Shown piece after piece: positions 588-64,000 of a DNA stretch of 64,000 nt. This DNA is from Xanthostigma xanthostigma (taxonomy: Eukaryota > Arthropoda > Insecta > Raphidioptera > Raphidiidae), in assembly GCA_963575645.1 (NCBI GenBank), contig OY754469.1, positions 14,340,001-14,404,000 on the forward strand, read 5' to 3'. Every line of letters begins with the position of its first letter. Position 1 is the stretch's first letter. Below the pieces are notes generated by a model, which saw only the letters and a list, made by a program, of their open reading frames with translations, made no database searches and was not told where the DNA came from. The translations under genes and the position numbers were made by a program.

Positions 588-3500
588 ATGAAGAATGAAT
601 CTAAAGAAAATGTATGTCGCGCCTGCATGTCTGAAAATTCTAAAACGGTGCCAATTTTTCGAAATGGTGACGAGTCAACAGTGAACAGTTGTGCTAGCAT
701 GATAATGGCGTGCACCACTGTACAGGTAAACGATTTTCACGAAGCGGGGCGTAAACAAACAGTTTTGTCGCATAAAGCGTATGTAATTTCAAATCACAGA
801 AAACTTGGTTACCTGTGATTTTGAAATTACCAGACGTCTTGAGCGGCACTGCTATGTAGTCTTTACTGTTGTGCAATGAAATGCTTTTTTCTTATTTTGT
901 ACGTTTTTATACCCACCAATGTCAATAAGCCATACAAATAAGAATTATGAAAGATAAAATTTGTCACGTATTTATAATATTTCTTAATAAAATATGCATG
1001 ATAACATACGCATAAAATCATATACCTGTTTAAGTAGGTCATCCAAATTTTAATTTAAAATTATTTAAAAAAAACTAATACTAACAGTTTTTATAAACTA
1101 ATGTACATTTTTTCATTTTAAAATGCACACTTCAAAAATCCGTGTGTGTGAGCTTATGTGCTGCTTGCATCAACTGCATTTATTAGAGTTTAAACGACGA
1201 TAATTAAATAATTGCCACAAATTTTTACACTTTCAAGGAAGTCAGTTTTAATTTGTTGTTCATATCGTGTTTAAACTCTTCACAGGAGTTTGAATCTGAG
1301 GTTTTTAGAATTGAGAGAACTGTTCACATTATTAAATTTTAAACTTGTTTATTAACGTTTGTGGGTTGAAATATATAAATTACTTGAAGTTGGATGGTTT
1401 GTTTATTCAGATTAATCCGGGAGATGGATTACCCGAACAAATATGCGTCCAGTGTGCCGATCAAATAAACCAATGTTATTTATTCAAATTAAAATGTGAG
1501 AATAGCGATACGGTCCTTAGAGAAAAATTCGGTTTGACAGAACCGAAAGAAGAATACGACACTGTCGAATATATGGAACAAATACTCAAAACGGACAAAG
1601 ATCAAATTAAAGAGGAAAGCAGTAATAACGATGACAATGAAAACCATTACGATGACAATGATTACTTCAATGACGATAATGACGAGTCCATGACTGAAAG
1701 CGACCCTCCACCGAAAAAAACTGGCAGCGGTAAATTAAAAGACGAACTGAAATGCGAATTCTGCGAAAAGAAATTTCAGCGCAAACAACATCTGAAAAAT
1801 CATACGAAAAATCACACGCACAATAGAAGTTTCGAATGCGAAAAATGTTTCAAAGGTTTCAGTAGGAAAGATTCGTTGATGTCGCATAATTTACTGCATG
1901 CAGACGGAGCCAAAAGAAAATCACAGGAGAAAAAGAAGAGGGCATCGATTAAAGTAGAAAAGAAACACGGATGTGATAAGTGCAGCTGTAAATTTGTTGA
2001 AGAAAATGACCTGATTAAACATATGAACGAGAGACATATCTGCACTATCTGTATGAAAAAAGTGTTTGATTTAAAAGTACATCTGAGGTGAGTTCAATCG
2101 AAAAATTTCGCCGAGCATTTTCGTGACAAAGTAATGTATTTCATTATTGAAGGAGATTTATTTGGTTGAAAAAATAAGGTTTACCAGAGTATCGCTTGTG
2201 GCCAGTGTTTCGAAAAATATATTTTCATCTTCAGGGCTTTAATGCAAGTTGAGATGTTAAATTGTGCAAATTATTGTAATATACACGATCATTTACATTA
2301 TGAATTTCAACAGTTTTTAAATTTAAAAATATTATAAAACAGTTTTTTTGATAAAATAAATAGATAAAATAAATAAAAGTACAATATTTATTTTCACATT
2401 GGACAGAACAATTTTATCAAAAAAACTATTATGATATTTTTAAATTTAAAAACTGTTGAAATTCATAATCTAAATGATCATATAATATATTACAATAGTT
2501 TGCACAATTTACCATCTCAACTTGCATTGAGGCCCTGAAGATGAAAATATATTTTTTGAAACGTTGGCTACAAGCGATACTCTGGTGAAGCTTAGTTTTC
2601 AATTGTTCCTCAACTGAATAAATCTCCTTCAATACATATTTTTGGAACAAAACTTCTACTAACAAGTATTTCATTATATTATTATGTTAAAACGTGTGCC
2701 GTATGAACATTTTAATTAAAGTTTAAGACAAATCAGAAATGATTGCTGTACGAATTGAAACATATCACTTCATAAGAGAACTATTAAAGACCGCACACAC
2801 GCATAAATCTGCACAATGTCGCATAAACTAGATCGGCATAAACCAGCTAATTTTAGTGCAGGTTTCGTAATGTACAGTAAACATTTTGCAGTTTTCAAAT
2901 AGTTTTATCAATGCAAATTAATTAATGAAAACGACACATCACTTGCACAGTAGAACGGTCCAGCACGAATATAGACAAAATTTGCAGGTGGCTGGTTGTA
3001 GGCGCTGGTCTAATGCGCACAACTCCATTAAATAACATGAGCACCTTCATGAACAGGCTTTTTTGCTCCGTGCTGTGCAGATTTATGCTTGGCAAGTGTG
3101 CGTGGTTGAGATTTTTTTTTTTTTTTTGAGATACGCCACTTCCTAACAGCGGTGACGATGTGTTGAACCCTGAAAATCTTCATCATACGATATAATCAAT
3201 TTTTTTTTATTTTGTCGAAATGCACTTTGAGGCTAAATTTGAAATAACACTATTTATATTCGTATTGTTGGTCTCTACAGGTCCTTTTTGAATAGTCTTT
3301 TCACACAATACAGTGTAACCTCTTTATAACGAATCTCAAGGGACCGAGCATTTTTTTCGTTATAAAGAGTTTTCGTTATATGGAGGGAAGAAAGAAAAAT
3401 AACCAAATTTCACCTAATTCGTTTATTCCAAGCACTATGCCTGACGTTTTTTGCTATGCCAATATTTGTTTTGTATTTTATTAAGTATCTTATGCATGAC

Positions 3501-5467
3501 TTGGGATGTGATGGAATCATCTTCATTACACAATAGGAATTTTTCGATAAGTTTGTCAGCATCAAGTGCTTGTTGAATGTTGCTGATTGTTCAGAATCGT
3601 CCTCTTTACGTCTGTAAATATTTGCTGACGCCTAAATGTGAACATATTTCTTCGTAATAGAGAATGGCCGTTGCGCTATAAAGAGGGTATTAATGTATGG
3701 GCTTTAAGGTAAACCAACCAAATTGTAAACATTTCTACGTTATAGCGAGTTTTTCGTTATAACGAATGACGTTATAAAGAGGTTACACTGTATTTATTAA
3801 ATAATTATATATTGATGGCACAATCAACCATCGTACACACATCATAACCTTCTACTACCTCTCCACTTAATAACTATATCAGTCTTATACAGTGTGTCCC
3901 CGGATTGAGTTCACAATAGGTGAGATTGACCAAAAATTTTCGAATTGGAATTTCATATTTTGGGATTCCGCCCTGCTTAGTCTTAAACTTATTTTTAGTT
4001 TACTTTCGATTTTTTTACATCAAGTAGGCCTTTACAGTTAAGCAAAACCTTTTTTCGTTTCAGGTAAAGTACCTTTTCCGTTCATAGTACGCAAAAGTGT
4101 CACTAAGAAAAGTTGTTCACAATGGAAAATTATGGCGTTATGCAAATTTTCAGAATGATCGGCCTACTTTGATAAAATCCGCTTTTGTTTTGTTTTGTTT
4201 GAAAAACAATCGCGTGGAGGAAGCCAAATACAGTAATTGGAGTTTAATTTATTTTTTTGATAAACTGTGAAAATTTGAATTTGAACATTTCTAATTACTC
4301 TATTTTCTCATCTAAGATTTATCGTGTAATCGTTAATAATAAATATTTTTCTCCTCTTTTCTACTTCTATTATCAAAGTAGGCCGATCATTCTGAAAATT
4401 TGTATAACGCCATAATTTTTCATTGTGAACAACTTTTCTTAGTGACACTTTTGCGTATTCTGAACGGAAAAGGTACCTACTTTACCTGAAACGAAAAGAG
4501 GTTTTGCTCAACTGTAAAGGCTTATTTGATTTAAAAAAATCGAAAGTAAACTAAAAATAAGTTTCAGACCAAGCAGGGCGGAATCTCAAAATATGAAATT
4601 CCAATTCGAAAATTTTTGGTCAATCTCACCTATTGTGAACTCAATCCGGGGACACACTGTATATACTTAAAATTAGGTTATTAATTGTAAAATTGTTTTA
4701 TGAAATGTGTTCACAGTCAAACTAAGTATTATTGTGAGCATAATTATAATTTATTGCTGACACTTCATAAACAACAAATAACGTTTTATTTACTAATAAC
4801 GAATTACTTAACATAGTATGTATCCACTACAATTTTCATCGATTCTTGTCATTTAACAATTCTAATAACTCTTCAATAAATAAAATTATTGAAGAGTTCT
4901 AATCAGACGTTAATCAAAGATTTGAATTCTAATAACTATTGCAGATCACACAATGGCGAAAAGACATTCCTCTGTTCCACGTGCGGCAAAAGTTTCAACC
5001 AAATTGGAGGCTTGAAACAACACATGTTATATCACAGCGGAATAAAATCGTTTGTGTGTGAAGTTTGTCAGACGAGTTTTGTGACGAAAGGCTCGCTAGT
5101 CAAACATTCGCGCATCCATTCGGGCGACAGACCGTATCAGTGCGATATATGTAGTGCCACGTTCTCGCGTTCGGACACTCTCAACACGCACAGGGAGCTC
5201 GTGCACTTCGGCAAGAAGAATTACGAGTGCGACATCTGCCACAAAAACTTTTCACAGTCGCATGCCCTCGTTAGACATAAACTGATACATTCCGGTGAAA
5301 AACCGTACAGTTGTAATTTTTGCGAGAAGAAGTTCACGCAGAAGACGACGCTGACGGCGCACCTAAGAATCCACACGGGCGAAAAACCGTACCTGTGTAA
5401 TACTTGTGGGCAAGTGTTCGGCCAGAGATCGACGCTAAGGTCACACAGACACAAGGAAAACCACTGA
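588..5467 (+). CDS. ZAD-C2H2 zinc-finger transcription factor, complete (gene 2)
   Basis: Three coding exons: 588-725, 1411-2087, 4945-5467 (1338 nt, 445 residues). Donors CAG/GTAAAC and GAG/GTGAGT, acceptors TTCAG/ATT and TTGCAG/ATC; phases 0 and 2 join in frame. The ZAD domain is split by intron 1: VCRAC (C10, C13) in exon 1 and CVQC (C58, C61) in exon 2; ZADs usually mediate dimerisation. An acidic linker (about residues 107-145, rich in D, E, N) follows, then ten C2H2 fingers to the C terminus; the fourth (CTICMKKVF...HLRSH) is short and spans intron 2. I chose the ATG at 588 rather than 570 because it aligns with the start of gene 3 (KSKENVCR). A nuclear DNA-binding regulator is expected from the family; targets are unknown. 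Intron 2 (2.86 kb) is filled with four inverted-repeat insertions. Confidence 0.9.
2148..2665 (+). mobile_element. Foldback retroposon-like element, 12-bp target duplication
   Basis: Two inverted arms of roughly 180 bases (outer ends TTGAAGGAGATT near 2148 and AATCTCCTTCAA near 2633) are followed by a 32-base non-palindromic tail. GTATTTCATTAT occurs at 2136-2147 and again at 2666-2677, a perfect 12-bp duplication. The right arm carries CTGAAGA (2535-2541), an AAAATATATTTT hairpin, then GAAA (2558-2561). No coding capacity. Lies in intron 2 of gene 2. Confidence 0.72.
3311..3790. mobile_element. pogo/Tigger-like MITE with TA duplication
   Basis: Ends CAGTGTAACCTCTTTATAAC and its complement (..TTATAAAGAGGTTACACTG), flanked by TA on both sides; 480 bp. 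The CGTTATA motif recurs several times inside. No transposase reading frame. Confidence 0.75.
3890..4659. mobile_element. Large snap-back MITE with TA duplication
   Basis: Ends CAGTGTGTCCCCGGATTGAG and its complement, inside TA dinucleotides. The two arms stay complementary for about 280 bases each, so nearly the whole 770-bp element folds on itself. No open reading frame. In intron 2 of gene 2. Confidence 0.78.
4871..4924 (+). mobile_element. 54-bp retroposon scrap with 13-bp target duplication
   Basis: AATTCTAATAACT is repeated exactly at 4858-4870 and 4925-4937. Between them are a short hairpin (CTTCAATAA...TTATTGAAG) and the tail TCAGACGTTAATCAAAGATT, shared with the element at 48199-48529 and, inverted, with 41743-41832. 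The right duplication supplies the sequence 7 bases from the splice acceptor of gene 2 exon 3. Confidence 0.7.
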
Positions 5468-5508
5468 ATAATTATTTTAATTTAGTTATAGTACTAAGCT
5501 CTTTTAAA

Positions 5509-5514
5509 AATAAA
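5509..5514 (+). terminator. poly(A) signal of gene 2
   Basis: AATAAA 42 bases after the gene 2 stop codon; no better signal nearby. Confidence 0.5.
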
Positions 5515-5576
5515 TCTTTTTTGAATTTATTTGATAAACTGTATTTTTTATTATTAAAATTTGAAAGAAAAAAAAA

Positions 5577-5793
5577 ATTGGTTGTCTGTAAAGTCGGTTT
5601 ACGGACGATAATTTTACGTGATAACGTATTCCGTAATACATAACCTAAATTTTAGTAGCTGTCAAACTTGGGCCGAAGCATACTGCGCTCTCGCTTGCAC
5701 GCACAGGGTCAGGCGGAACGTTAGGAACGTTACACTTTTTCGTGGGTGCAGCTGGTGTTTCATCAATTTATAAGACGTTATCATGTCAAAACA
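5577..5793 (+). repeat. Dispersed repeat E, short internally deleted copy
   Basis: Both halves match the outer parts of 20527-21178 in the opposite orientation: TCGGTTTACGGACGATA at the left and CAGGGTCAGGCGGAACGTT at the right. About 470 bases of the longer copy's interior are replaced here by about 45 different bases. It fills much of the gene 2 to gene 3 spacer (5468-6188); nothing else is recognised there apart from the presumed gene 3 5' UTR. Confidence 0.65.
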
Positions 5794-6188
5794 TTGTCTT
5801 GAACACAACTGAACTGTAGAATGTAGTCAAAGCTGTAAAGATTACACACAGGCTGGATGTGCACTTTGAGCATTCTATTTTTGCAATATTATTAGAATTT
5901 ATAGTAAGTAATACTAATAAAGAAATTCGTGCGAAGTATATCAATGAAGACGGCAAGGGATGTTTCAGAAAAATGATAATTTTATGTTTACAAAAATATG
6001 GAACGTAAAAGATGCATAATTGTCAAAACATTCACAACGCAATATTATTTTTCTAAATACGTTGCATTAATTTGAAACCAGAGTTTTTGTCATCCAGACG
6101 TTCTCAACTTGTTTTTGAGCGGAAAACCTTGCATGGTCTCCAAATATCAGTAAAATAAAAGAGTGACGTATAAAATTTAGTAATTAAA

Positions 6189-11514
<5,326 letters not shown>

Positions 11515-13052: not shown

Positions 13053-13398
13053 ATACATCGATTTATGAAATGTGAACAAAATCGCAAATTTGGTTTTTGT
13101 TCGTCTATCTTTATTTAGGAGAGTAGGTGGAAAATATAAAATGACCATTAACAAGACTTCACTCCCAAGGTTGCTTGACGTTAAAAATCAACTAAAAATC
13201 AGTTTTGATTATTTTCTCAACCTAAATATGATTAGTGTATCGCGAAAATTCATTCCAATTCCGTTTGCAATGTATAGATAACGAAAATCCATTGATTTCA
13301 TAGTATTATTATGTAGGTAGTAGCAGATCCAGTGAAATACTTTTAATATAATAATATGAGTTACATTACTCGAAATGACCAAATTATAAATCCATATA

Positions 13399-13956
13399 CA
13401 GAGTGGCGCAGAGGAAACGCATGTTTTTCACCTAAGCATAACATTTTATATTTTCAAGATACTGTTGTTTCAATTACAGCTAAATGAAGTAATAATAATG
13501 CACTTTTAAATCAATTATGGAAAATAATGTCAGTCGAGTGTCGCCCTGCTTCGCGGTCGCACATCTCCAACCGCTCTTGGAAATTGTGCATCACATTTAA
13601 AATCATTTCTGGCGATTTCTTGACGAATAGCAATTTTCAGTCCTTTTTGTGGGGTTACCTTAAGTCTAAAGTGTACGCTAACAAGCCCCGTACGTTACAG
13701 GAACTGAAAATTGCTATTCGTCAAGAAATCGCAAGAGTACCACATGAAATGATTTTAAGTGTGATGCACAATTTTCAAGAGCGTTTGGAGATGTGCGACC
13801 GCGAAGCAGGGCGACACTCGACTGACATTATTTTCCATAATGGATTTAAAAGTGCATTGTTATTACTTCATTTAGCTGTAATTAAAACAACAGTATCTTG
13901 AAAATATAAAATGTTATGCTTAGGTGAAAAACATGCGTTTCCTCTGCGCCACCCTG
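13399..13956 (+). mobile_element. mariner-like snap-back element with transposase C-terminus
   Basis: Ends CAGAGTGGCGCAGAGGAAAC and complement, flanked by TA; complementarity continues about 200 bases into each arm. The plus strand encodes a transposase C-terminal piece: LWGYLKSKVY, then RTLQELKIAIRQEIARVP and MHNFQERLEMC, typical of insect mariner-type DDE transposases just past the last catalytic motif. The upstream catalytic domain is absent, so the element is non-autonomous. Confidence 0.78.
13527..13901 (+). pseudogene. Truncated mariner-type transposase (C-terminal part)
   Basis: Open frame of 124 codons; only about residues 46-117 look like transposase (FLWGYLKSKVYANKP to the GRHSTDIIFH end). 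The N-terminal 45 residues are the inverted-repeat arm read in frame. It lacks the DNA-binding and most catalytic residues and cannot be active. Confidence 0.65.
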
Positions 13957-14434
13957 TACTACCCAAAATTTATTTCACCCCCTTAAGTTTCTTGCGTCGC
14001 TAAAATTACTTAATTTTCGAACGTCTATAATTAGGAAATATCTATTCACCCCGTTAGGCGCTCTTGGAAAAAATAAATAAATCACAATTATTTCACGGAA
14101 AGAATTTTTAATTTTTATGCCAAACTGTTTCGTTCCAAGAATTTTTCAACATTCTGGGAGCATTATCTAGTGTTCTCGTTTTATCGAGGTATGATTCAAT
14201 GACACTAACGAGTGACTTATCAAATCTGTTGCACAACGAGCTGTGATCAGAGAGGCGGAAGTACTATTTCCGCGAGGGAGAACCAAAATATAATCGGGGC
14301 TGTGTACTAAAACTGCCTGGCTGATGGATGGTCTTTACTGTAGATTGTAGAAGCACAATACCGATCGCGCTACAATGATTCCAGTGGCGTGCGCTTGAAG
14401 AACCAAGATTTGCGCTGCGCTGATAGCTAGTATA

Positions 14435-31905: not shown

Positions 31906-31909
31906 TGAT

Positions 31910-32142
31910 GTAATACATTTCATTCTTAGGACTGTTAAAATACCTAAATTAAATCCTCTAAACGAAATTCCCTAATTGATGATCACTGCACCAATAGCTA
32001 ATTTTTTTTAACGAACAAGAGTATCTTGTTCGTTAAAAAAAATTACCCATGTAGCTATTGGTGCAGTGATCATCAATTAGGGAATTTCGTTTAGAGGATT
32101 TAATTTAGGTATTTTAACAGTCCTAAGAATGAAATGTATTAC
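31910..32142. mobile_element. Near-perfect 233-bp hairpin MITE
   Basis: Arms of about 110 bases starting GTAATACATTTCATTCTTAG, meeting at AACAAGAGTATCTTGTT. Almost no mismatches, so young or recently homogenised. Confidence 0.8.
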
Positions 32143-32249
32143 AACTGGAGGCAGGCCTTGAAATAAAATACAAACATTTATTTTTCATTTATTTAATCGA
32201 TTAAATAAAAAAAAATAAAATGACTTTTTAAGATTAAGTACTTAAGTGC

Positions 32250-43800: not shown

Positions 43801-45705
43801 TGCTATAGTCAGCTTGTAAGATTTTAATTTTTTTATGCCAACTGGCTTACGTTTAGTAAGTACTTACTTCGGCCAAACACGCCCATTGATAGAAAAAAAT
43901 TAAAAAGCATACAATTTTAGGGAAACAATTTGAATTTTACAATCAATGATCTCATTGAAAATTTGACTGATGAAAATGAGAAAGAAATCCTTTCCAAAAA
44001 TGTTTATTTTTAATTAATTAATTAAGCGCTTTCGGACAATTATTAGTCCATCTTCAGAAAAAAAAAAATTTTTCTGAAGATGGACTAATAATGTTTATTT
44101 TTAATTAATTGATTAAGCGCTTTCGGACAATTATTAGTCCATCTTCAGAAAAAAAAAATTTTTTCTGAAGATGGACTAATAATTGTCCGAAAGCGCTTAA
44201 TCAATTAATTAAAAATAAACATTTTTGGAAAGGATTTCTTTCTCATTTTCATCTAAATTTCCAAATTTATGTGCGTATTGAATAATGAAAATTTGACTGT
44301 ATAAAATCGGTCCTTAGGCATTTTTATACAGTTAATTGAAAAAGAGTTAAAAAAAATGTAAAGTTAAAAAAAAACATTACGTTTTGATTTAGATCACATT
44401 TTTGAGAACATGACAAAAAGAAAAAAAAATTGTAGAAACGGTTTGGTGAGGTGCTTTTCATTTAGTGATTTTTGGTGTCCCCTGAGACGTGATGCCCTAA
44501 GCAGTTGCTTATTTTGCTTAAAGGTTAATCCAGCACTGAGTACGGTTCGCGTAATGGAGCGGCAAATCTATGTAAAGCATAAAAAATACGCCGCTTATAT
44601 TGCATTGAAAATTACAGTCGTATTTTCAGTTGATTTTACTCGCGTATTTTAAAGTTTTTAGTGCCTACTTCCCAGTGTCTCATCTTACGTTGTTTGTTTG
44701 ACAGTGGATGGCGTTAGGTCCGATAAGGAGACGGCGCCACTCCGAACCCGATTACGACGTACCGAGGTCGCATCGAAATCGGCATTTCATGCCTCCGATT
44801 CCTCAAAGACCCAACGAACCGATAGACGAAGCCATACCCGCTACGAGATTTTTCGGTCCGGTACTGACAAACGCGTCATTCCCGAATTCCAGGTTCGTGT
44901 TTAACTCGATATTTATAACTAAAATAATTGGGCTTTTGAATGAAATTTTTTTTTGTCATAAATGGAAAGATCGTATATAAGTTTTATAACAAAACTATTT
45001 TTCTTTTTTTTATTTTCGTTATAATTCAAAAGTTATATCAAATTAAAAATAAATTTTTGTACCCAGTTCCGAGAACGCGCCGACATTTCCCGAACATAAT
45101 GTGACGTCATAATGTTTTAGTCAATACACATGTAGAAGCCATTGATAGTATACTGCGTATATACATTTTACCATTATGACGTCACAACTGTCAAAAACAA
45201 TTTTAGTGCGTTTGCAGTCACGTGATTTTTTTAAATATTTTATCAATTTTAAATTGCTTATAATTAATTTAAAAAAAGTTTTTCGAAAGGTTTTCGCATC
45301 GATTATCAATATTATTTATAATAAAGTTTTAAAATACAATAAAAAAATCGATAATTATTTTTTTTTCAAAAGCCTAATTGTGTATCATGAGCTGAAATAT
45401 ACATTTTCAGGGATAGCATAGAACTTGCTAGCACTGTGTGGTCGCCGAGCATAACGCCGGATTCCTTGGAACCGGTTGCGTTGGATAATCAACACAAACC
45501 ACGACTGAACGCACACGAAGAATTAAGTAGAAGCCTAGGATCCGAAACAATTCAGCATAACACAACGCTTGTTTGTATAGACGAAACAGACGGTGACAAT
45601 TTTAACGCAAACAATAGCCTTCAAGACGATATCAATAAAAATAGCACGGCGCTTATAAGCAATTGTTATTTCGATTCGCTTGAAGAACAATCGACTGTGT
45701 TTTAA
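34895..45705 (+). CDS. PH-domain, tyrosine-motif-rich docking/adaptor protein
   Basis: Eight coding exons: 34895-35092, 35410-35628, 36458-36845, 38577-39721, 40044-40161, 42562-43226, 44705-44892, 45411-45705 (3216 nt, 1071 residues); all eight join in frame through GT-AG introns. Residues about 56-160 form a PH domain: GYLEKKGKKK, WKCYWFVLEGRLLLFYK and the C-terminal helix with W150 (ELWLQALL). The rest is low-complexity and charged, with three LVRNSLYxEV repeats (Y322, Y351, Y385) and further Tyr-x-x-hydrophobic sites (YAEI, YGEI, YEEI, YEVI, YDVP), plus proline motifs LPPRPK, GLPPRR and PPIPQRP. By family logic the PH domain recruits it to membrane phosphoinositides, and phosphotyrosines and PxxP motifs would bind SH2/SH3 partners; that is inference. 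The N-terminus has an eight-Asn run. I do not recognise a named orthologue. The acceptor at 34857 lies in the 5' UTR, so at least one untranslated exon exists upstream. Confidence 0.88.
35950..36421. mobile_element. Snap-back MITE in PH-gene intron 2
   Basis: Arms start AGGGACCCCGCACAAAC and end with the complement GTTTGTGCGGGATTC; further complementary blocks (AGATTTTxxATATAGGGATAT) extend inwards. Its right end is 36 bases before exon 3. Confidence 0.65.
37566..38183 (+). mobile_element. Helitron family 1 with tRNA-derived insert
   Basis: TCTATACTAATATATAAAGC start after A and GGGACCGCTAG end before T. Compared with the copy at 11827-12172 it has about 250 extra bases in the middle (about 37772-38025), in which a tRNA-Lys-like sequence sits. 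Confidence 0.78.
37832..37904 (+). pseudogene. tRNA-Lys-like pseudogene / SINE head
   Basis: A box TAGCTCAATCGG and B box GGGTTCAAGCCC, with CGTTGGGCG acceptor end, resemble tRNA-Lys. The anticodon stem does not pair (CACGA versus CATCA) and the loop reads CTGTCAA, so it is not a working tRNA-Lys. An AT-rich low-complexity run follows. It may drive Pol III transcription. Confidence 0.6.
40703..41072 (+). mobile_element. Helitron family 1, decayed 3' end
   Basis: Starts TCTATACTAATATTATAAAG; near the end GCACCCGGGTGAAACGGGGA is recognisable but CTAG is lost. In PH-gene intron 5. Confidence 0.6.
41743..41832 (-). mobile_element. 90-bp retroposon scrap with 13-bp target duplication
   Basis: TTACTCCATAATC at 41730-41742 and 41833-41845. 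On the minus strand the insert ends TCAGACGTTAATCAAATATT, the tail shared with 4871-4924 and 48199-48529, and contains GGTCGATAATTTTATTTATT as in the latter. 5'-truncated, no hairpin. Confidence 0.72.
41916..42310. mobile_element. Harbinger-like MITE U, copy 1 (TTA duplication)
   Basis: TIRs AGACCACTGCACACGAGGCT and complement AGCCTCGTGTGCAGCGGCCT; TTA on both sides. CTAGCAxxx motifs recur inside. Same family as 46551-47270. Confidence 0.75.
43471..43888. mobile_element. TIR MITE nested in the hAT element
   Basis: Ends CAATGGGCGTGTTTGGCCGA and complement; the AGTAAGTACTTACT palindrome lies next to each end. 418 bp, non-coding. Confidence 0.78.
43970..44285 (+). mobile_element. Foldback retroposon-like element, 14-bp target duplication
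   Basis: TGAAAATTTGACTG at 43956-43969 and 44286-44299. Arms from GATGAAAATGAGAAAGAAAT to its complement near 44250, then a 35-base unique tail. The right arm has CTGAAGA (44165-44171), a GGAC/GTCC stem and GAAA (44189-44192). The left half contains an extra partial repeat of the hairpin. Confidence 0.75.
44926..45380. mobile_element. TIR element Q, short copy
   Basis: Same ends as 27173-27890 (AATTGGGCTTTTGAATG and TTTCAAAAGCCTAATTG), with an internal deletion. It ends 30 bases before the last exon of the PH gene. Confidence 0.75.
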
Positions 45706-46135: not shown

Positions 46136-49100
46136 TCAACGTCTCCTGCCGCCGTGTTTTTTGCCGCCTCCTCCGCCATGACGATTCTTGCCGCCTCCCC
46201 CGCCATGGTGGCTTTTACCACCTCCTCCTTTATGCTTTTTACCAGCATTCAATCGTTTTCTGAAACCGCTCGCTTCTTCTGTATCGTCTTCATCATCATC
46301 GCCATGTTTGCGCTTTCCTTTTTTCCCTTTTTTGTCATCAAGATCTTTCATTTCCTGTAAAAAAAATTATTTGACTGTTAAAATTCAGAATAATCATTTT
46401 GATCTTTTCTCACCGCAACCGATGTAGCTTAACACTGTCTCAGTGGTAGTGACGAATTAATTGCATCATGGAATCAAACTAAATTTTTATGCATCATCGA
46501 CAACTGTTAGAGTTACATTTAATTCTTCGGAAATTGTAGGCAGTAACTAAAGGCCGCTACACACGAGGCTACAAACGCTGCTAGATTTGCCTACTAGTTT
46601 TCTAGCGCTGGTTTTCTTGATTGCTGTTATGTGCTCGCTTCACACAAATAGTATATTACATCACAAGGGCTGAGATTTCAACTTTAAAGGCCCGTGTGGT
46701 GTATACAATTTTTCTTCATATCCGCTCGAAAGTATGTACTTTCGTCAGCGGGGACGAAAGATTGACATTTACTTCCAGTGAGAACGGCGGGAGGAAAAAA
46801 TTTCTCATGCGTATTTATACTCGTAACTAGGGTTACCGCTGTCATTTAATATAATAAATAACAGGGAGTAAATGTCAAACTTTCGTCCCTGCTATAAGGG
46901 ACGAAAGTACGTACTTTCGATCAAGGCATGAAGAAAACGTCTTTTCAAACTTGTTTTGTGGATAGATCTGGTACGCGCGCAGTATAAACACAGATCAAAA
47001 CGTGTCTGTTGTCTGACTTTGAGCGGAATGACGCCATGTTGGTTTGTGGGCGTTTGGTCAAGTCGCCCACGTGACAAGATACTGCTTCCTGATTGGTTCT
47101 TGCTCATACCTAGCAGCGTACATAGCGAGGAAAATAGCCCCTGTTCTAATTTTAAAACTTGTCTTGTGAGCTAGCAGGCCAGCCCACAGTGATGTCACTT
47201 CCAGCTTCGTACCCAGCCTACCGGCCAGCACAAGTCCAAGCAGAGTTTCTAGCCTCGTGTGCAGTGGCCTTAACATACAGCTTCACAAGTTATGTGCATG
47301 GACCAATGTAAGAACAATATGTTTTACATTGTTTTATTACTTTGCCGCTTCATTAAACTTGTTAGTAACTGTGTATTACTCACTGACAATTTCTAAATTG
47401 AACTATAGTAAAAAGTCTTACCATTTTAGCGCATCTCTGTGCTTCGCTGACTCTTTCTTGCAGGACCATGACCTGGGCTTCCTCAGTTTTATACAAAGGT
47501 AACTTCTTACTAATCAGTTGTTCTATCCTTTGATACAGTTCTATATCATACTGAAATCAAATAATCCATTTCAGTAAAATTTCACAATGCAATACCTCAA
47601 CAAAACTTATTCTTTTTTTTATCAGAGGTAGTGACGAAACATATATATTATCACAAATATTCAAAAATATAATTTATACATCATAAAAAAAACTATTAAA
47701 AAAAAAACTTGGGTCGCAGTGCGAAACCCTGCCGACAATATAGTGTATTTGCTTACAATGGCAGTGTGACTTTATTATGTGAATTTAACCCTTTTGTTTT
47801 TGAACAAAATAAAAATTTTAACCCATTAATACATCCATTAAAATAATATTTTTCTTAATTTCAATATTACTATCAATTTACCAAATTAAATTCACCCTTC
47901 ACTAAGTAAATCCATATCTACAAACTAATGTTTTCATAAAATTTTCAAGTTCGGTTCTGTCGGGCCGATTTTAATAAAATTTTGGTAGCATATTTTAATC
48001 ATTACTAAAGGGTTAAATTTCAATTTTGAAACGATTCGGAGAAATTTCTCGGTATTTTTGGGCCCAAAAATATTTTTCAACTCCTAAGACCCACCCTTAA
48101 AGTGGTCCGATTGAGCCCATTTTAAATAGGCTTCGCGCGGTGATAGATTTCAACATGTGGTCCAAATTTCATTACATTTCCAAAAATAGTGCCAAAGTTT
48201 TCAAATAAATAAAATTGTCGACCAATTTTTCTCAGACTAATATATTGACAAAAAATAAAAAAATAACAAATCAATACAACATAAGATGACGTTTCGATCC
48301 GGCTTTGGATCTTCTTCGGAAAATTCTAAAAAATATAAAAATTAATTAGTATTATTTTTATATTTTTTAGAATTTTCTGAAGAAGATCCAAAGCCGGATC
48401 GAAACGTCATCTTATGTTGTATTGATTTGTTATTTTTTTATTTTTTTGTCAATATATTGGTCTGAGAAAAATTGGTCGACAATTTTATTTATTTCAAGAG
48501 TTCTATTCAGACGTTAATCAAAGATTTGAATAGTGCCAAAGTGTTTGGGAGGCTATGAAACGTCGAGAAATTTTGGTCCGACCCCTAGGTCCCGCTATCC
48601 CATCGACGCCAATAGTGTCAGTGCCTTATGGCAAATACCTACGCTAATAAAGAAAAAAACTTTTTTTTTACCTGCGTTACAAACGTGATGGCTCTTCCCG
48701 ATCTGCCCGCTCTGGCAGTCCTACCGACCCTGTGAATGTAGTCCTTACTATGCGTTGGAATGTCAAAATTTATTACAATATCTACGTGTGGAATATCCAA
48801 ACCGCTACAAACACAATTTCAATGTTTATTTCACAAAATGTTCACCGATAAAAATAGTTATTGTAATAAAAACATTACGTATAACGAAGGAACTCGTTTT
48901 AATTACGTATAATAATAAGTTCGTTCCAAGCAGCCGCGAACGGTAATAAAACCGTACACAGTTTTGTTACTGCGCAAGACTGTCTTGCGCAGTATCGATT
49001 TCCGAGCTCGTGCGCAAATTAGTCTTGCGCAGTGACAAGACTGTGTATGGTTCTATTATCGTTCACGGCTGCTTGGAACGAGCCTGTTATTGAAACAGAT

Positions 49101-51805
49101 TTTGAGAATTGCCTCAGTGGTAGTGACGAAACAAATAAATTATCATTATATTGATTCAATTAGTATTTTATACATCATTGGCAATATATCTGTCGTTATC
49201 ACAAGTAAAAAGCAAACATTTAACTACAGGCCAAACGTTTTTTATAAAACCTCCGCAATATTATTCAATTTCATATTTCAAAATAATCAGAGTGGAGTCT
49301 AGATTATTCGAGAGTAATGACTGAGATGGAGTACATCAGGGCTGGGCAAATGGCGGCCCCTGGGCCAGATCTGGCCCGCGAAGAATTTTATAAATTTTAG
49401 AAAAATAGTAAAGAAATAGCAAGGGCCAGAACAGACGAAAAAAGGACCTAAGGAACTTTTTTTTTTGCTCTCCAAATGCGAAAATAGAACGTGAGGACCT
49501 ATTTTTTGCGGTCAAATTTTCATCAGCTATGTGGCCCGGCGATCAAAAAATTTTCCCGCTCCTGGGGTACATGGATAATTAAAAATCAGGGCTAATTCAA
49601 AATGTATAAGAACAAAAATAAACTTCAATTCATACAAAATAAATGTTCTAAATTATTTCCGTACTGTTAAAAGACATACTCGGGCGACGAAAAACACGAA
49701 AGTCGTCCAAAACTAAACCTATACTCGAAAGTTTACTATCCATAACCGAGGTCATTAGCATTCGATGTACTATATTAATACTGAAGTTTGTTATTGTATT
49801 ATCACCCATTAGACACAAGCCGTTGTGTTGATGGCTCAATAAACATTTAAAGACATTATTTTACTTACCGACTAGCTACATCTGTGGAAATCAGAATCGA
49901 TCGATTTTTTGCTCTGAACTTGGTAAGAGCCGCTAACCGTTTATTCTGTGACATTTGACCATATAAAGGTATCGCAGTGAATCCAAGACTGCGCAGCATA
50001 AGCGCTGTTCGGACTGTGTTGTTACAGGTACTGCAGAATATCATAAAACTGTTGCCTGCTAATTCGTTCAAAATGTAAACCAAATAGACATCCTGAAATA
50101 TAAATAAAAATACGGTCAATGAATGTTTTCATTTTTATTCAACTCATGCGCGCTATTCATGTTTTATCAAGCCTAAAAACCGAACCCTAAATAGCCATTT
50201 ACCGACTGGTGACAATTTCTTGTCATAACTCAATGAAAATTCCTACTAGCTCGGCCATTGTGGAGTAATGAAAATAAACGAAACTATTTTCTGAGTCGTA
50301 ACGAAATAGTAGGTAACAACAACTCCCTGTTGTTACCCATTGAGACTAAAATTGAGAGGCCGAATGTTTTCGACATGGAGTTTATTCATAACCGGCTAAC
50401 CTCAAACCAAAACATTGAATCGTGCTGTTTGGTGCTGTTAGTATTGACAGTTTTTTTTATAAAGAAATAAATAGATATTTACAACATATCATTAATAACA
50501 ATAAATAAAACATGAATAACGCGCAATTGTTGAACAAAATTATGGGCGTAACTTGTAGGCTAAGTCATGACCTGTCAGCGCCATGAATGACTTAGACTAC
50601 TAGTTACGCCAATAACTATTAAATGCAGAACTAATTAAAAATCTGGTAAAATTTTACTGAATGGACGGTTTCGATTTTGGCGAATTGTGAAACGCACGAA
50701 ACTTCATTACAAGGACACGACCCTGTAATTGTTTTTTAAAACGCCCTCCCCTTTTCACTGCACTTCTTCAACTGTCCTATAGTGATAGACAGTTTCGTGC
50801 GTTTCATAATTCGCCAAAATCGAACTTAGTCAAATTTTACCAAAAATCTTTACCACTGTCATAGAGCAACTGGTAAATTGTTCCGAAAAAAATGTTGGAA
50901 ACTTACCTTAAATTTAACAGGTATAAATAAATATGACTGCTGCAACTTATCAACGGTTTGATATTTTGTCGATACTTCCACTTTGACAGGATCACGTAGC
51001 GATGCTCTTTGTAATTTGTTGACTTTCTTTGTCATTGTTGCCGAGAACAAATACGTGACACGTTCTCTCGGAATAACTTTGAGTATTTTATCGACTTCGA
51101 CTTCAAAGTCCATGTTTAAGATTCGATCGGCTTCGTCCATGACAAGGTATTTTAAGGAACGCAGGTTGAAACCTTTTGTGTTTTCCAAATGGTCGACTAA
51201 GCGACCTGGAGTTGCGATGATGATGTGCGGTTTCTTGGCTAGTATTAGTTTCTGCGACATTTCGTCCATTCCTCCAACGATGACTACACATTTTACGCCG
51301 ATACTCGTTCCTAGGGCCTCGAACTGTTCTGAAATTTGAAAGGCCAATTCTCTTGTCGGTGTCAATATCAGCGCGAAATATCGTTGTGGATTTTGAAGTA
51401 GAGACTGAAGTATTGGTAAAGCGAACGCTGCCGTTTTTCCGGAGCCTGTTTCCGCCAATCCGATTATGTCTTTGCCTTGTAACGCCAAGGGTATTGCTTC
51501 CCTCTGAATTTTCGACGGTTCTTTCCATTTTAATTGCCTACACGCTTCACACAAAACGTCAACTAAGCCCTAAACAAATGAAATCTATATAAAATAAGGA
51601 TTTCCATAAAATGAGTCGCACGTGTTGATGCTTCTGGAACTATAACCTAACATTCTGCACTTACCAATTCTTCCCATGTGACACTGTTCTCGGCTTCTTT
51701 TTCTGTATTTTTCGCGTCAATATTATCTGTACTTTCATCTTTCACAGATTCATCTTCAACATCAGCTTTATTTTCTTCGACTAGTGCTTTCTCTTCTTCG
51801 ACCAT
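46136..51805 (-). CDS. DDX47: ATP-dependent RNA helicase DDX47/Rrp3, complete
   Basis: Six exons on the minus strand: 51665-51805, 50907-51569, 49869-50092, 48672-48804, 47422-47550, 46136-46354 (1509 nt, 502 residues), all in frame. DEAD-box motifs in order: Q-motif region ending EPSKIQ (64-69), AETGSGKT (86-93), PTRELA (118-123), TPGR (167-170), DEAD (192-195), SAT (223-225), STDVASRGLD (337-346), [10 protein letters not shown] (367-376). The overall match is to DDX47/Rrp3, a nucleolar helicase needed for pre-rRNA processing and 40S maturation. The N-terminal 45 residues are acidic; the last 70 are Lys/Gly/His-rich with GGGGK-type repeats, a likely RNA-binding tail, longer than in the human protein as I recall it. 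Start codon context is AAAATGG. Convergent with the PH gene. Introns contain several MITEs. Confidence 0.96.
46551..47270. mobile_element. Harbinger-like MITE U, copy 2 (TAA duplication)
   Basis: TIRs AGGCCGCTACACACGAGGCT and AGCCTCGTGTGCAGTGGCCT; TAA on both sides. About 310 extra bases (roughly 46620-46930), absent in 41916-42310, are inserted after GCTGGTTTTCTT and include inverted CGAAAGTAxGTACTTTCG blocks. Confidence 0.75.
48199..48529 (+). mobile_element. Foldback retroposon-like element, 13-bp target duplication
   Basis: ATAGTGCCAAAGT at 48186-48198 and 48530-48542. Two nearly identical inverted arms (about 145 bases) meet near 48343; a tail of roughly 40 bases ends TCAGACGTTAATCAAAGATT. 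The right arm has CTGAAGA (48377-48383), GATCC/GGATC stem, GAAA (48401-48404). In DDX47 intron 4. Confidence 0.82.
49337..49564. mobile_element. hAT-type MITE
   Basis: Ends CAGGGCTGGGCAAAT and ATTTTCCCGCTCCTG-like; flanks GAGTACAT and GGGTACAT, an 8-bp duplication with one mismatch. In DDX47 intron 3. Confidence 0.75.
50130..50629 (-). repeat. Dispersed repeat AA, copy 1
   Basis: Inverted match to 61987-62530 over most of its length, including GGTAACAACAxxTCCCTGTT and TAGCCGGTTATGAATAAA blocks. In DDX47 intron 2. Confidence 0.68.
50643..50848. mobile_element. Short inverted-repeat MITE W
   Basis: TGGTAAAATTTTACT ... TCAAATTTTACCA and inner TTTTGGCGAATTGTGAAACG with complement. Its centre (CCTGTAATTGTTTTTTAAAA, CGCCCTCCC) reappears at 63930-64000, so another copy is cut by the right edge. 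Confidence 0.6.
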
Positions 51806-58861: not shown

Positions 58862-62929
<4,068 letters not shown>

Positions 62930-63686
62930 CTATAAAGTTTAAACCAATATTAAAAAAAATACACGTCCACACACATAGCCTGTAGCTATTGAAAATTCAA
63001 TCGTTCCAGATGCAGCAGAAGTCGCGATTCTCTTTGTCTATACAAACAAATGACAAAACAATAATAATAATTGAAAAATGGACACTACTTACATAGAAAG
63101 TTAACTGATAAAAAGCAATTTATTTTTAGTTAGAAAAATATAAATAAAAACTTTAAGTAGACTAAAGTAATATTTAAAAAAATATTTAGTAGTTACAAAG
63201 AAGACATTTAATTTCTAAAATGCATTTTATCGAAATAGCATCTTCTTAAAATGACTTTCGTTATATAACAAAATAATTATTATATGTCATTGCAGAACTA
63301 TTATGTAACTTGCGTATTTGTAAGCATGTTATTTAATTGTTGGCATTTCGACATTCAAGTGATGAATAAAAATTTAGGTGCAAGGTCAATGATATAATAA
63401 TTATTTTGGACACATTTTGATTTTTTACTGGCGGCTACATTTTTGCGCTGGATATATGAAAATTTAATGCGGGTCCAGTACGATAACTGGATGTTCCCAA
63501 ATTTTGACTTTTTTTTAAGTCATAGAAAACGCTAAATTGACGTTCCAAAAAAAAAAAAAAAAACTTTGCGGATTATTCACAAATTTCCTCAACAATACGT
63601 AAAAACTGTTCGTCTTTTACTATCATTTTTTTAATCTAACCAATCAGAAATCACATATACACGTCATAACAACTGGTATAGAATAA
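62930..63686 (-). other. CNOT3 intron, no other feature
   Basis: AT-rich sequence upstream of the first visible CNOT3 exon, without recognised exon or element. Confidence 0.45.
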
Positions 63687-63896
63687 GGCCTAGTTTATAT
63701 GAGAGGCGTTCAACGCGCGTTAGCCCAACGCGCGTTTACAGTTTCTATACAATTGTATATAACTGTTTACATGATAACGCGCGTTGGTGGCGCGTTGGAC
63801 GCGCGTTATCATGTAAACAGTTATATACAATTGTATAGAAGTTGTCAACGCGCGTTGGGCTAACGCGCGTTGAACGCCTCTCATATAAACTAGGCC
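63687..63896. mobile_element. Palindromic MITE M, copy 2
   Basis: Same hairpin as 14611-14823 (GGCCTAGTTTATATGAGAGG ends, GTTCAACGCGCGTT blocks). Flanks TAA and TTA/TAC do not give a clean duplication. Confidence 0.8.
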
Positions 63897-64000
63897 TTAC
63901 TGTATTAGTATCTCACTTTGTATACGGGATCCTGTAATTGTTTTTTTAAAGAATTCTCCCCAAAACGCCCTCCCTTTTTCACTGCGTAAAAAAACGCCAT

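Follow-up and report, generated by a model that had tools for sequence, protein, structure and literature searches.

The window, by which we mean the whole stretch of 64,000 nucleotides of Xanthostigma xanthostigma DNA that was analysed, contains three elements of the same general design, E48 (positions 48199-48528), E44 (43970-44285), and E21 (2148-2665), each of which is flanked by direct repeats (TSDs; Table 1), has long arms in inverted orientation, and bears a tail on the right side only. A preliminary description of this DNA had picked out the three by their long hairpin, one-sided tail, and direct repeats, and all of this is confirmed here, with repeats of 14 bp in E48, 14 bp in E44, and 12 bp in E21, and tails of 31-32 nt; the E48 repeat is 13 bp long if an A common to it and the tail end is left uncounted. 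As E44 carries three hammerhead motifs in alternating orientation, it is a compound of more than two segments. A frame for a zf-AD zinc finger is also present in the window.

Table 1. Positions in the window of the parts of E48, E44, and E21; hammerheads, initiation sites, and the derivation of the arms are predictions from the sequence.
Feature	Position	Strand	Remarks
E48 left TSD	48185..48198	.	AATAGTGCCAAAGT
E48 left inverted arm	48199..48353	-	putative antisense copy of a PLE 3' end, from site A, tail-less
E48 left arm, hammerhead copy	48288..48319	-	core CCGAAGA, i.e. U4 mutated
E48 putative cDNA junction	~48353/48354
E48 right arm	48354..48497	+	putative sense copy of a PLE 3' end, to site A
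E48 hammerhead	48377..48408	+	CTGAAGA, extra A 48384, stem II 48385-48389/48396-48400, GAAA
E48 hammerhead, 3' part	48404..48408	+	palindrome ACGT 48404-48407, C17 48408; cleavage predicted after 48408
E48 one-sided tail	48498..48528	+	31 nt, between inferred initiation sites A and B
E48 right TSD	48529..48542	.
E44 left TSD	43956..43969	.	TGAAAATTTGACTG
E44 inverted arms, compound	43970..44253		three hammerhead motifs: 44030-44057 (-), 44121-44148 (-), 44165-44192 (+)
E44 tail	44254..44285	+	32 nt
E44 right TSD	44286..44299	.
E21 left TSD	2136..2147	.	GTATTTCATTAT
E21 inverted arms	2148..2633		hammerhead motifs 2208-2234 (-), 2535-2565 (+, stem I GGCC/GGCT)
E21 tail	2634..2665	+	32 nt
E21 right TSD	2666..2677	.

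In the window there are 12 matches to the core pattern CTGANGA..GAAA, whereas 100 shuffles gave 2.68 on average and at most 8; several of the 12 are unrelated to the elements. When the core must also be accompanied by GAA and by a stem II with 4 or more pairs, all seven window matches lie inside E48, E44, and E21; six of these have one extra base, and the seventh is an E21 motif that was rescored with two.

The origin of E48 can be traced through longer copies. Four of the 122 places in the genome that match a pattern further upstream in E48 were examined (L097-L100), and in three of them (L097, L098, L100) the E48 arm runs upstream into a GIY-YIG frame. Scored with the Pfam GIY-YIG model, the L098 frame reaches 23.0 bits, above the cut-off of 22.6, and that of L100 19.5 bits, below it, the L097 frame being unscored. 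L098 is a foldback of 1.2 kb whose GIY-YIG ends are inverted relative to each other; it has a single tail, and its TSD measures about 13 bp. L099 is a shorter foldback; the TSDs of L097 and L099 are 13 bp long (all three judged by eye). Because the arm continues into the GIY-YIG frame in these longer copies, we take E48 to be the 5'-truncated 3' end (pLTR) of a Penelope-like element (PLE).

Wider searches bear on the kind of parent. At least 37 GIY-YIG matches were obtained with Pfam in the genome (150 of 521 candidates scored), and RVT_1 and GIY-YIG were both matched in five of the six frames tested from GIY-YIG loci; the RVT_1 score of L075 is slightly below the curated cut-off. The RT domain was seen in other PLE families of the genome, the link of E48 itself to a parent being the GIY-YIG frame. 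Three of the GIY-YIG loci, L059, L060, and L074, have inverted ends, of which just one bears a tail (32-37 nt), and TSDs of 15, 16, and 14 bp, respectively. L069 resembles these three, but its flanks are of low complexity, and a clear TSD is absent at L062, one of the five GIY-YIG loci whose ends were inspected. The Penelope-type reverse transcriptase that the preliminary description had proposed to look for is present in the genome, in frames that combine RVT_1 and GIY-YIG and are accompanied by the same motif, inverted ends, one-sided tail, and TSD. Its suggestion that all three elements are small Penelope-like derivatives holds for E48, the arm of which is joined to a GIY-YIG frame; E44 and E21 are tied to PLEs by anatomy and hammerhead motif only, and E21 has a relative of 80-85% identity in L071. 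The features found in common with PLEs are a GIY-YIG parent (for E48), inverted pLTRs with a one-sided tail, which in PLEs measures 30-40 bp, TSDs, and a hammerhead motif within the pLTR.

Elements of this kind are abundant. In the 623 Mb of genome searched, the 33-nt tail pattern of E48 has 16,383 matches with up to three mismatches (8,182 + 8,201), that of E21 has 945, and that of E44 has 45, the reversed control giving 0 in each case. A 37-nt pattern further upstream in E48 matches only 122 times; 122 upstream as against 16,383 tail matches is as expected if most copies are 5'-shortened, and subfamily divergence lowers the upstream count too.

Two samples of E48 copies were compared. The first consists of the best 28 of 40 scored copies (1,651 candidates) and was obtained with a tail-bearing query of 331 nt, which biased the lengths of the copies chosen by similarity; because this query had picked the 28, a second sample was drawn by the tail only, comprising 20 copies (every fifth of the first 100 exact tails listed). 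Each of the 28 was fitted as an antisense plus a sense piece of one reference. In these 28, conservation is high in the outer arms but not in the centre, and the longer arm is the tail-less (left) one in 14 copies and the tailed (right) one in the other 14. The 28 copies have 28 distinct pairs of arm ends, so that what the preliminary description had put forward as a separate class of foldback elements looks instead like a collection of independent pairs of truncated cDNAs. The two arms of one copy have 47 variants in common, whereas 5,000 permutations gave 12.4 on average and at most 29, and this excess indicates that a single RNA, or several RNAs of common origin, templated both cDNAs of a copy.

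In the tail sample, elements with a credible TSD measure from 38 to about 450 nt, with one composite of 736 nt in addition. An inverted arm is present in 17 of the 20 copies (the short ones of L078 and L082 by eye), and none was seen in L090, L094, and L096. In the first 28 copies the arm ends sum to a near-constant value, and a size rule based on this was rejected, as tail-only copies span 38 to several hundred nt; the near-constant length of the 28 looks like an effect of the search query.

An exact TSD of at least 10 bp flanks 25 of the 28 similarity-chosen copies, and in 15 of them it is exactly 13 bp long; the other three (L011, L021, L028) have exact TSDs of only 7-8 bp. Among the tail-sampled copies, a TSD of 10 bp or more flanks 15 of 20 (it contains one mismatch in two of the 15), and a credible TSD was not found in L084, L090, L091, L092, and L094. 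Tails at both ends were seen once in the 28 (L011). Of nine copies that had not been chosen by their tail, six (L059, L060, L074, L097, L098, L099) have exactly one; the remaining three are L069 and L062, with the flanks and ends described above, and L100, of which one end was inspected and which stops at site A without a tail. Six E21 loci with seven tails are variable as well, with inverted E21 arms in L103, L105, and L106 and none seen in L101, L102, and L104; a 12-bp TSD accompanies only two of the seven tails, one of them in low-complexity sequence, and the window copy E21 also has a TSD.

The hammerhead motif was studied in 11 examples, three from the window and eight from the 18 PLE loci scanned (L059-L076). 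The motifs of L060, L073, L074, and L076 are repeats of ones already counted, no hammerhead motif was found in L065-L068 and L072 among the 18, and weak core matches in L061 (at 163, no extra base), L064 (at 5027), and L074 (at 6669) were set aside as chance. In all 11 motifs CTGA[AT]GA is followed by a single additional nucleotide, then by stem II, which begins with G10.1, and by GAAA. The core letters and the pairing of stem II were search criteria, with 0, 1, or 2 extra bases allowed, and so are not evidence in themselves. A single nucleotide stands between A9 and stem II in 11/11 motifs (T in eight, A in three), and the closing pair G10.1-C11.1 is G-C in 10/11 and G-U in E21. Directly after GAA, every one of the 11 has a palindrome, 4, 6, or 8 nt long, and then a C or T, for which the chance is about 0.105 per motif; the palindromes differ in sequence, start with A, and end with T (ACGT, ACTAGT, ACATGT, AGCGCT, ATGTACAT). 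The predicted cleavage site directly follows the palindrome and reads GUC/A in E48. Counted from this point, stem I has on average 3.55 contiguous pairs versus 0.64 for swapped partners, and none of 20,000 permutations reaches the observed sum (0/20,000), stem I being weak at the junction in E48 (1 bp) and in E44 and L059 (2 bp each). The pairs L062/L070 and L071/E21 are related, so the 11 motifs are not fully independent and the odds for both the palindrome and stem I are optimistic.

These results alter how several points of the preliminary description are to be read. The covariation it had claimed holds across the 11 motifs, which had been picked without regard to the two features that show it, stem I and the palindrome. 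Its doubt about stem III is eased, since a palindrome in this place is what dimeric PLE hammerheads are reported to have, and it is directly followed by the predicted cleavage site; the doubt about stem I is lifted for the set as a whole and persists for E48, where this stem is weak. The extra base after A9, treated there as a departure from the hammerhead consensus, is present in 11/11 motifs and is the rule in this genome, not a defect.

Across the genome, 4,560 places match the +1 core with T as the extra base (control 0), and 167 match the insert-less spacing (control 2). Among the 100 of the 4,560 T-insert matches listed, 24 are distinct, of which 20 pair best with one extra base and four are stemless. 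Among the insert-less matches listed, 44 are distinct: 22 pair best with one extra base (G), eight with none, and 14 are without a stem of 3 bp; for two of the eight (GGAAAA types) the pairing with one extra base likewise comprises 5 bp. Rfam hammerhead models, at the gathering score and at E values up to 10, gave no hammerhead on the E48 or L063 motif, and strong Rfam miRNA scores at E48 reflect its long hairpin. A genome-wide search with RF00163 (Hammerhead_1) returned two matches, both below the cut-off (73 of 81,843 candidates scored). No match to an Rfam hammerhead family at the cut-off is literally one of the three outcomes that the preliminary description had named as speaking against it; the other two, an absence of covariation and full-length relatives that are TIR DNA transposons, are not what was found.

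Taken by comparison of the motifs, a type I hammerhead with a +1 core is supported, in which stem III would be formed only by an intermolecular palindrome and not within the monomer. We consider it probable that this ribozyme is active in some context, although the arms of a foldback transcript would pair with each other, which counts against hammerhead activity. The idea that cDNAs stop at the hammerhead cut was rejected: only two of the 35 mapped arm ends fall within 3 nt of it, both of them in L084, and 25 of the 35 lie upstream, a number in which these two are included (the 35 exclude the short arms of L078 and L082, and the right end of L078 is doubtful). As 25 of 35 arm ends lie beyond the site, cleavage of the template RNA would usually be absent or unnecessary, and the scarcity of template cuts agrees with the finding that catalytic mutants of the ribozyme of an Anolis PLE are still inserted (PMC11167929).

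The main alternative to an active ribozyme, which we think unlikely though deserving of attention, is that the hammerhead is a relic, or a fold that binds protein without cleaving. The extra core base, the lack of a stable monomeric stem III, the weak stem I of E48, and the position of most arm ends beyond the site could all be read in this way, as could the behaviour of the Anolis PLE ribozyme, which according to the available text of PMC11167929 cleaves only with protein present and can be catalytically inactivated without loss of insertion. What weighs against a relic is that palindromes have been kept despite their differing sequence and length and that stem I pairs across families, both of which would indicate selection for the full hammerhead fold.

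As to how the foldbacks arise, we suggest, with a probability of roughly 0.87, that E48 is a 5'-truncated insertion of a PLE encoding RT and GIY-YIG that was made from two separately primed and then joined cDNAs. A typical insertion consists of a sense copy that runs into the tail and stops at site B, and of an antisense copy whose start, site A, lies about 31 nt further inward. In the mechanism that we envisage, the GIY-YIG enzyme, perhaps as a dimer, would cut both target strands about 13 nt apart, and the two target 3' ends would serve as separate primers on PLE RNA, reverse transcription beginning at site A from one of them and at site B from the other. Joining of the two cDNAs at their truncated ends would then give the foldback. 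If the hammerhead acts, its substrate would probably be tandem or paired RNAs, stem III being made by their palindromes. It is the variety of arm ends, together with the equal split of the longer arm between the two sides, that argues for two separately primed cDNAs, as opposed to a master copy or a snap-back. For the purified Anolis PLE, RT has been described as starting in vitro at two adjacent sites that bound the tail, with both target strands cut and extended (PMC11167929), and because those starts bound the tail, the tail asymmetry seen here fits two start sites. The same source describes the start site as equal for both strands, with no difference seen; the use of a different start site at each end (A versus B) in our copies is suggestive, not proven. 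In its widest form, the proposal that two-sided priming with a division between A and B gives rise to inverted pLTRs, tails, and foldbacks, and that the accompanying +1 dimeric hammerheads go undetected by current models, is one toward which we lean.

Other routes to the same structures have to be weighed. The RT might copy the sense RNA and then switch to an antisense PLE RNA with its 5' end at site A, a route that would yield a fixed left end and random junctions, and antisense templates have indeed been suggested (PMC3846280). We consider such a switch improbable, as the antisense RNA would need its start some 31-37 nt inward from the tail end, and unrelated families would have to share this, and the same spacing is explained without it by the two RT start sites described in vitro (PMC11167929). 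We give still less credence to the view that a single cDNA folds back and copies itself into an inverted arm, akin to the self-priming of rotifer Penelope. Self-priming on an antisense template has been proposed from palindromes at inverted junctions (PMC3846280), and the two arms of one copy resemble each other more closely than do arms taken from different copies. A snap-back arm, however, is limited to the sequence of its own cDNA, whereas the tail-less arm reaches further upstream in 14 of the 28 copies, and a tail-less first cDNA would be unable to template the tail; L077 and L081 are clear counter-cases in the tail sample.

Equally remote is a stable non-autonomous foldback that is copied as a unit from hairpin masters, to which the many copies near 330 bp and the near-constant sum of ends in the first 28 might be attributed. 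The near-constant length looks query-made, however, set against the 38 to several hundred nt of tail-only copies, and the fitted junctions differ in 28/28 copies, among which no subfamily sharing one identical junction was seen; yet some centres are similar, and later indels could obscure a common origin. Finally, a foldback DNA transposon or MITE with terminal inverted repeats, which the long inverted arms and flanking repeats might bring to mind, is extremely improbable given the unequal arms within a copy, the differing junction in 28/28, the one-sided tail, the exact TSDs of 10 to 17 bp, and the GIY-YIG parent, and for E48 a DNA transposon is refuted by the joined GIY-YIG frame.

The objects themselves are of a known kind, namely PLE insertions, and what would be gained is a mechanism and a recognised form of ribozyme. 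The mode of PLE insertion is an open question, and the inverted repeats have so far been explained only by hypotheses such as self-priming. With the tail of a single family matched over 16,000 times, arm lengths, common variants, tail asymmetry, and TSD length become measurable on thousands of events, and the small samples studied here speak against self-priming and for two separately primed cDNAs. That a +1 palindromic hammerhead with thousands of matches is missed by Rfam suggests, further, that ribozyme surveys based on such models undercount PLE hammerheads. A derivation of PLE foldbacks from two-sided priming was not met in the available portions of the literature on twin priming, inverted pseudo-LTRs, and non-autonomous foldbacks, and may exist elsewhere.

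The nearest systems known to us differ from these elements in instructive ways. Penelope of Adineta vaga and relatives, as far as PMC3846280 describes it, likewise has inverted pLTRs, an optional one-sided tail of 31 bp, TSDs, which are 8-10 bp long in the cases named there, and an RT plus GIY-YIG parent. Its copy number is low, as against more than 16,000 tail matches for E48, and its structure is attributed to self-priming, a hypothesis against which the arm lengths of the E48 copies, most of which are short fragments in our sample, speak. Poseidon PAc of Anolis carolinensis shares the tail between two RT initiation sites and the cutting and extension of both strands, and its hammerhead is described with stems I and II near the ORF start; the available text of PMC11167929 does not derive inverted insertions from two-sided priming and gives start sites that are equal between strands. 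The E48 copies, in contrast, use mostly one start site per end.

In twin priming of L1, both target strands prime cDNA, and the product is an inverted segment with a TSD. The second primer lands inside the RNA in that case, whereas the cDNAs of E48 would start at the fixed 3' sites A and B and may overlap. For the extra core base, the closest counterpart is the hammerhead of the viroid CChMVd, in which De la Pena and Flores reportedly showed in 2001 that an extra A between A9 and G10.1 leaves the ribozyme active, U being better than A. Both position and choice of base, A or U, are thus those seen here, and activity is said to be kept, the stable stem III of the viroid hammerhead being unlike the PLE motifs. 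The available text of one survey of core variants (PMC3088659) lists insertions after positions 6 and 13 and mentions none after A9. Dimeric hammerheads of PLEs, in which a palindrome replaces stem III and the motifs are in tandem, have been described (PMC6466107), as have minimal hammerhead motifs that act as dimers (PMC7761336), and those of Lunse et al. 2017, as relayed by citing reviews, resemble ours in being type I, without a helix III of their own, palindromic, and in tandem. The non-LTR retrozymes of animals are also small repeats with type I hammerheads that are thought to be mobilised by PLEs; in the account given in PMC7229834 they form direct tandem repeats with canonical ribozymes, whereas E48, E21, and E44 are inverted and have a +1 core.

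In E44, a foldback element of the window (43970-44285), three hammerhead motifs lie at 44030-44192 and alternate in orientation, indicating that the element is made of more than two segments. Among the 28 genomic copies of the window element E48 chosen by similarity (the best 28 of 40 scored), a single copy (genome coordinates G000:C1:8613632-8614358) carries the 31-nt tail, normally found at one end only, at both ends.

Five other long inverted repeats in the window lack a hammerhead core with a paired stem II and are probably different element types.

Other long inverted repeats of the window, with the result for a hammerhead core
Feature	Window position	Hammerhead core with paired stem II
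Long inverted repeat	3886-4663	none
Long inverted repeat	13397-13958	none
Long inverted repeat	31909-32143	none
Long inverted repeat	59551-60198	none
Long inverted repeat	63678-63905	none

A further inverted repeat (48911-49091) adjoins a minus-strand match to the snoRNA family SNORD70 (49105-49191; 52.3 bits, slightly over the gathering score of 50). The window also holds several zinc-finger-like frames and one DEAD-box helicase frame (1336-9132 and 50862-51569), and one of two zinc-finger-like frames tested has a zf-AD domain.

Elsewhere in the genome, just two matches to Rfam Hammerhead_1 (G000:C1:5417285-5417330 and C1:46574205-46574250) were found among the 73 of 81,843 candidates scored, both slightly under the cut-off (33.6 vs 34 bits). 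On the minus strand at G000:C1:10656695-10657161, three identical copies of the hammerhead motif stand in direct tandem, spaced by about 218 nt, an arrangement that resembles a retrozyme or a tandem pLTR array.
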